This document shows positions 4,766-4,820 of a stretch of 32,926 bases of DNA, piece by piece. The stretch lies in NCBI GenBank assembly GCA_016220145.1, contig JACRID010000005.1, forward strand, positions 1 through 32,926. The letters run 5' to 3'. Position numbers and translations under genes: made by a program. The notes below the pieces were generated by a model, which worked only from the letters and a program-made list of their open reading frames with translations, was not told the DNA's origin and searched no databases. Position 1 is the first letter of the stretch; every line of letters starts with the position of its first letter. Source of the stretch: Candidatus Peregrinibacteria bacterium (GTDB taxonomy: Bacteria; Patescibacteriota; Gracilibacteria; UBA1369; UM-FILTER-53-11).

Positions 4766-4820
4766 CAGACCGAGCCGCAGCGAGGTTAAGCAGTAAATGC
4801 GCCGACATATGTCGGCGCAA
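4766..4820 (-). repeat. Hairpin-containing leader element Z1, abutting the tgt start codon
   Basis: Contains a perfect 22-bp palindrome TGCGCCGACATATGTCGGCGCA (4798-4819); strongly similar to 21931-21980 in the same orientation relative to the downstream ATG. Confidence 0.8.

Follow-up and report, generated by a model that had tools for sequence, protein, structure and literature searches.

The near-identical leaders that directly precede the tgt and prfA genes of this Candidatus Peregrinibacteria bacterium are, with high probability, two copies of one dispersed palindromic repeat, which is built of two hairpins and inserts as the unit AARG...CCTR, either into genes or in front of ATG start codons. 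Insertions of exactly this unit at many sites in two related genera would leave the target unduplicated, and the distribution of the element suggests that it is, or once was, mobile.

Two copies of the element are found in the window, by which we mean the whole stretch of 32,926 nucleotides that was analysed. The copy before tgt (4766..4824, minus strand) is 59 nt long, runs from GATG to GTCTG and scores 64.8 bits with a covariance model of the element; the gene encodes tRNA guanosine(34) transglycosylase (3650..4765, minus strand; TIGR00430 of NCBIfam) and has its ATG at 4765. The copy before prfA (21927..21980, plus strand) is 54 nt long, runs from ATGG to GTCTG and scores 76 bits; this gene encodes peptide chain release factor 1 (21982..23046, plus strand; TIGR00019 of NCBIfam) and has its ATG at 21982. 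The first-pass annotation of this DNA had described the two leaders as nearly identical, structured and abutting their start codons, and that description is borne out. Over the 38 nt that run from GGCGCA through GTCTG, four positions differ (34/38 identical), and the ATG follows the end of the element at +0 in tgt and +1 in prfA. Hairpin 1 keeps its pairing with a different loop in each copy: 11 bp are possible in tgt (4798..4819, minus strand; TGCGCCGACAT/ATGTCGGCGCA) and 6 bp are formed in prfA (21932..21948, plus strand; TGCGCC/GGCGCA). Hairpin 2 reads ACC-TC-GC[TGCG]GC-TC-GGT in the tgt copy (4769..4786, minus strand) and ACC-TC-GC[CACG]GC-TC-GGT in the prfA copy (21960..21977, plus strand). 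A putative TATAAT box, identified by eye, lies 26 nt upstream of the tgt copy (4847..4852, minus strand) and 16 nt upstream of the prfA copy (21909..21914, plus strand), where it overlaps the prmC stop codon. A 25-nt core of the element occurs twice in the window and in none of 100 shuffled versions of it. At both copies an upstream ATG opens a short frame out of register with the gene, which is not a general property of the family. The window also holds a long, rearranged form of the element upstream of gyrA (12021..12187, minus strand; about 167 nt, with edges placed by eye), which is a partial match of 14.7 bits and stops 20 nt before the gyrA ATG at 12000. Extra hairpin sequence apparently lies inside the CCCC/GGGG hairpin of this form, and the arrangement suggests nested growth of the element.

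The element is typically about 54 nt in length and follows the plan AARG-hairpin 1-TTAAT..TTAR-hairpin 2-CCTR, or in fuller form (W)AARG-(T/A)-hairpin 1-TTAAT..TTAR-hairpin 2-CCTR, where hairpin 1 is usually TGCGCC/GGCGCA. The composition of the flanks places the edges at AARG and CCTR, and the terminal inverted repeat is only 3–4 bp (AGG...CCT). Both hairpins vary in sequence across copies while their structure is kept. The length of hairpin 1 lies between about 6 and 11 bp and its stems can be very different, as in GTTTTGC/GCAAAAC, GTCCCGCC/GGCGGGAC and TGCCCAGCC/GGCTGGGCA; hairpin 2 shows a double change from A-U to G-C, and in other copies its paired sequences are wholly different. Of all pair cells in the alignment, 93.4% are standard, and five pairs carry compensatory, double-sided changes. 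Covariation is 0.198 as against 0.104 in shuffles, and slid versions of the alignment give lower values. Some copies, all in the genome to which the window belongs, take a long form that has one more hairpin and measures about 93 nt, and one such copy folds well below its shuffles (z −4.2). Two variant copies in the same genome, L078 (C81:1834) and L074 (C12:5679), run beyond the start of hairpin 2 into the identical sequence CCTCGCCTTCCGCTGCGCTCCATGTTGGATTTG.

The family is present in high copy number and has a narrow range. In this 1.28 Mb genome (G000), a 27-mer allowing at most three mismatches gave six matches, with none for the reversed pattern; a slightly shorter pattern gave 13 matches in G000 and 13 in a genome of another genus of the same family (G002), the other relatives searched giving no match. 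A covariance model built from 18 copies recovered about 42 copies in G000 and about 32 in G002, of which 74 were extracted; the census is based on genome searches and fetched stretches, most of G002 having been fetched. The first-pass annotation had named the absence of further copies as a refutation, and dozens exist. The model found no significant or convincing copy in four other members of the family, and no convincing carrier was added by 288 class-level and 380 phylum-level sampled genomes. One class-level match (G280) is weak, AT-rich and without the core in the part read, and was taken as chance. A search of a genome contig collection returned a single exact match, in unrelated Paraburkholderia sequence that lacks the hairpin. 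No match was found among viral contigs with two exact patterns or among plasmids with blastn. In G002 there is a subtype that lacks hairpin 1 (L105, L109, L111, L113 and L114), in which GAGATGCRCTATTTRY is followed by hairpin 2.

The position of the copies relative to genes separates a dispersed repeat from a dedicated cis-regulatory leader RNA, that is, a riboswitch or protein-binding leader coordinating genes connected with translation, among them tgt, prfA and typA. Copies end 0–4 nt before the ATG of tgt, prfA, typA (in both genera) and pheS, hairpin pairing is conserved and the typA copy is common to the two genera, all of which speaks for such an RNA. However, around 35 of the 74 copies lie within the open frames of host genes (19 sense and 16 antisense, a few of the frames being weakly supported), and this favours a dispersed repeat over a dedicated regulatory RNA. 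Against the leader RNA, too, the start-abutting genes identified from their N-termini include ftsH, polA, radA and glyA, the tgt gene of G002 is without the element and no curated RNA family in Rfam matches it. With copies found beyond sense 5′ leaders, a leader RNA of this kind, which is the first of the two readings in the first-pass annotation, is very unlikely, and the targets are not specifically the translation-related genes that the annotation had noted. Matches to the covariance model do not always abut start codons, about half being intragenic, and the varied orientation and position relative to genes that had been named beforehand as favouring a plain repeat are largely what is found.

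The intragenic copies of the dispersed repeat are constrained in ways that leave their host genes readable. Coding copies use one frame per orientation, which yields the peptide KxAPxGRxN..LASxRLGL in sense and RPSRSEAK..RPxGA in antisense; an exception is L046, at the C-terminus of a transketolase subunit, which is read in a shifted frame. When copies of 54 nt are excluded, length is divisible by three in 10 of 17 coding copies as against 3 of 24 others (p=0.003), and most of the coding exceptions are truncated or variant copies with edges poorly placed by the model. Coding copies add 17–31 residues. The hosts are conserved proteins, with Pfam matches for all 20 of the 20 scanned, and include DHFR, NadB (L-aspartate oxidase, with a FAD_binding_2 match), FolD, riboflavin kinase, LeuRS, NAD(P)H-hydrate dehydratase, HrcA, TsaD, UvrC, a tyrosine recombinase, UvrD, P5C reductase, the ATP synthase gamma subunit, and AIR-synthase and glutamine-amidotransferase proteins of the purine pathway. 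As judged from sequence, the DHFR insert precedes the VIGG strand, in a segment whose length varies, and the NadB insert lies immediately before the EGGH motif. The single stop-free frame, together with lengths mostly divisible by three, argues that the coding copies are translated, and the inserts are probably tolerated by their hosts. Intragenic copies would be seen only where length and a single open frame leave the host gene readable, and each would then be translated as an additional segment of 17–31 residues, while intergenic copies would be free of the length constraint. In some mitochondria, ribosomes are known to pass over hairpin elements, and the inserts here might likewise be skipped, or be spliced from the mRNA, so that no extra residues are made; such processing would not require one stop-free frame or lengths mostly divisible by three, and is extremely unlikely.

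Comparison with uninterrupted orthologues gives clean boundaries at several sites. In L061, L080, L076 and L087, the net inserts of 17, 20, 18 and 31 residues relative to the G002 orthologues equal the length of the element, and the G000 protein, once the element residues are removed, is as long as its uninterrupted G002 counterpart; at sites other than these four, divergence in the empty-site alignments is too great for the junctions to be placed. These equal lengths fit the insertion of exactly AARG...CCTR with no target duplication. The main exception to the absence of target duplication is GAAGG, which flanks the NadB copy on both sides, and TGATG at tgt also resembles a duplication. Neither is taken as a target duplication, because other sites, inspected by eye, do not carry such repeats and because of the lengths at the empty sites.

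Copies outside genes show a different regularity, namely an excess immediately in front of start codons. Upstream of genes, sense copies end 0, 0, 0, 0, 0, 0, 1, 1, 1, 2, 2, 4, 18, 22, 67, 71 and 76 nt before the ATG, and antisense copies 0, 0, 7, 7, 9, 9, 9, 13, 15 and 33 nt. Twelve of 17 sense copies but 2 of 10 antisense copies end 0–4 nt from the ATG (p=0.018, with the 0–4 nt cut picked post hoc from the data and gene starts taken from open reading frames and homology; within 40 nt, p=0.003), and the gaps in the window predict about 8% in this interval. The long form before gyrA, which ends 20 nt away, stands outside the 17, and its inclusion makes the sense count 12 of 18. The suggestion in the first-pass annotation of a repeat that delivers a translation-initiation region agrees with the dispersed repeat, and as to initiation it keeps some support from sense copies that end 0–4 nt before the ATG far above expectation and with an orientation bias.

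The start-codon excess could be explained by an insertion preference, by selection against other positions or by a useful leader, and in our judgement it more probably reflects insertion preference or selection than a sensing function. Sense intergenic copies mostly lie right next to the ATG, with the putative −10 box on their other side, and would there become the 5′ leader of the mRNA. Most gene starts in the window, inspected by eye, have AT-rich leaders without a Shine–Dalgarno-like sequence, so that an element inserted in this interval may be tolerable. It is possible, if on the doubtful side, that the repeat is selfish in origin and that its start-codon copies have been kept as working translation-initiation leaders by exaptation, not placed there by insertion preference. 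The orientation-specific excess at 0–4 nt speaks for this, although a preference for the 3′ side of the element predicts an identical excess. The weaker A-U closing pair of hairpin 2, present in four of seven start-abutting G000 copies as against 5 of 35 other G000 copies, fits selection for a weaker hairpin at starts, but would also fit a single subfamily related by descent. Flanks of the typA copy are alike in the two genera, and it is probably an old shared insertion; its persistence favours a retained leader, but the G002 typA copy has an altered hairpin 2 sequence. A broader and equally tentative proposal is that one selfish repeat serves as peptide insert, 5′ leader and possible regulator, docking in one orientation against start codons, replacing the native short leader of about 12 housekeeping genes and supporting initiation without a Shine–Dalgarno sequence. 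A palindrome-like GCGCCTCGCTGCGCTCGGCGTG stands directly before the prfA ATG in G002 (C18; start 152029), where model R1 reports no element.

As a dispersed palindromic repeat, the element can be set beside several known systems. REP elements are short imperfect hairpins that carry a GTAG or CGTC tag, are mostly extragenic and are associated with RAYT transposases (PMC3733652). The present element resembles them in its short imperfect hairpins, its many copies and its lack of target duplication, and a Y1 transposase does exist in G000. A search with PF01797 across G000 and five relatives, in which Y1 loci were scanned with the covariance model, found one intact Y1 transposase in G000, which adjoins no copy, and G002 gave no Y1 domain; neither genome yielded a mobilising enzyme in this search. 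In contrast to REPs, the element ends in AARG and CCTR, with neither tag, and half of its copies are intragenic. Movement as a REP by a RAYT (Y1) transposase is hence unlikely, and identity with REP/RAYT was rejected for want of a tag and of a Y1 gene beside the copies. Prokaryotic miniature inverted-repeat transposable elements (MITEs) are likewise small non-autonomous repeats able to give in-frame fusions (PMC10969869), but the present element has no target-site duplication at readable sites and a terminal inverted repeat of only 3–4 bp; a MITE with target duplication was rejected on the equal protein lengths of the four orthologue pairs described above.

The closest likeness is to the Rickettsia palindromic elements (RPEs), which, according to PMC2229807 and PMC10969869, are dispersed palindromes of which a large share is fused in frame to conserved genes. 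Like these, the element is a small dispersed palindrome that is found between genes and, to a large extent, in frame in conserved genes, where it encodes a characteristic peptide. RPEs are, however, 105–146 bp long with a 12-bp terminal inverted repeat (Ogata et al. 2000, 2002, via reviews; PMC2229807), whereas the element here is about 54 nt (93 nt in the long form), has two hairpins in series without a 12-bp terminal inverted repeat and shows an excess directly before start codons. Because the actual RPE families are longer and carry this terminal repeat, the element is not filed as an RPE; it matches the RPEs in kind but is a separate family, in another small-genome bacterium. Protein-coding palindromic repeats outside Rickettsia, likewise in frame in genes, have been described in Wolbachia (Ogata 2005) and Methanocaldococcus jannaschii (Suyama 2005), both as cited in PMC2229807. 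No report of coding palindromes in candidate-phyla bacteria was found in the open-access literature, which leaves out much and is weak evidence on this point.

Selfish palindromes lodged in coding sequences were first reported in Rickettsia, and later in Wolbachia and an archaeon. The family described here has been found in only two of the genera sampled, has clean junctions and many conserved host enzymes, and is accompanied by a sister genus with uninterrupted orthologues. It offers a new system for studying the movement of such repeats, the protein positions that tolerate them and the effect on initiation of a hairpin directly before the ATG. It also carries a warning: when translation genes share an upstream leader, that leader can turn out to be a repeat instead of a riboswitch.

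Another palindromic repeat, GTCATTGCGAG-(variable middle, often a hairpin)-GAAGCAATC, has 12 copies in G000 and 9 in G002, with one copy in the window (26239-26282, plus strand). It was absent from four other genomes of the family, so that among the family genomes searched it is limited to the same two genera as the main element; nothing relevant to it was found in the literature. LeuRS (L079) and the L085 protein carry the main element in G000, and at those sites their G002 orthologues (C11 and C4) have the GTCATTGCGAG repeat in frame, as though some positions in proteins take up such inserts again and again.
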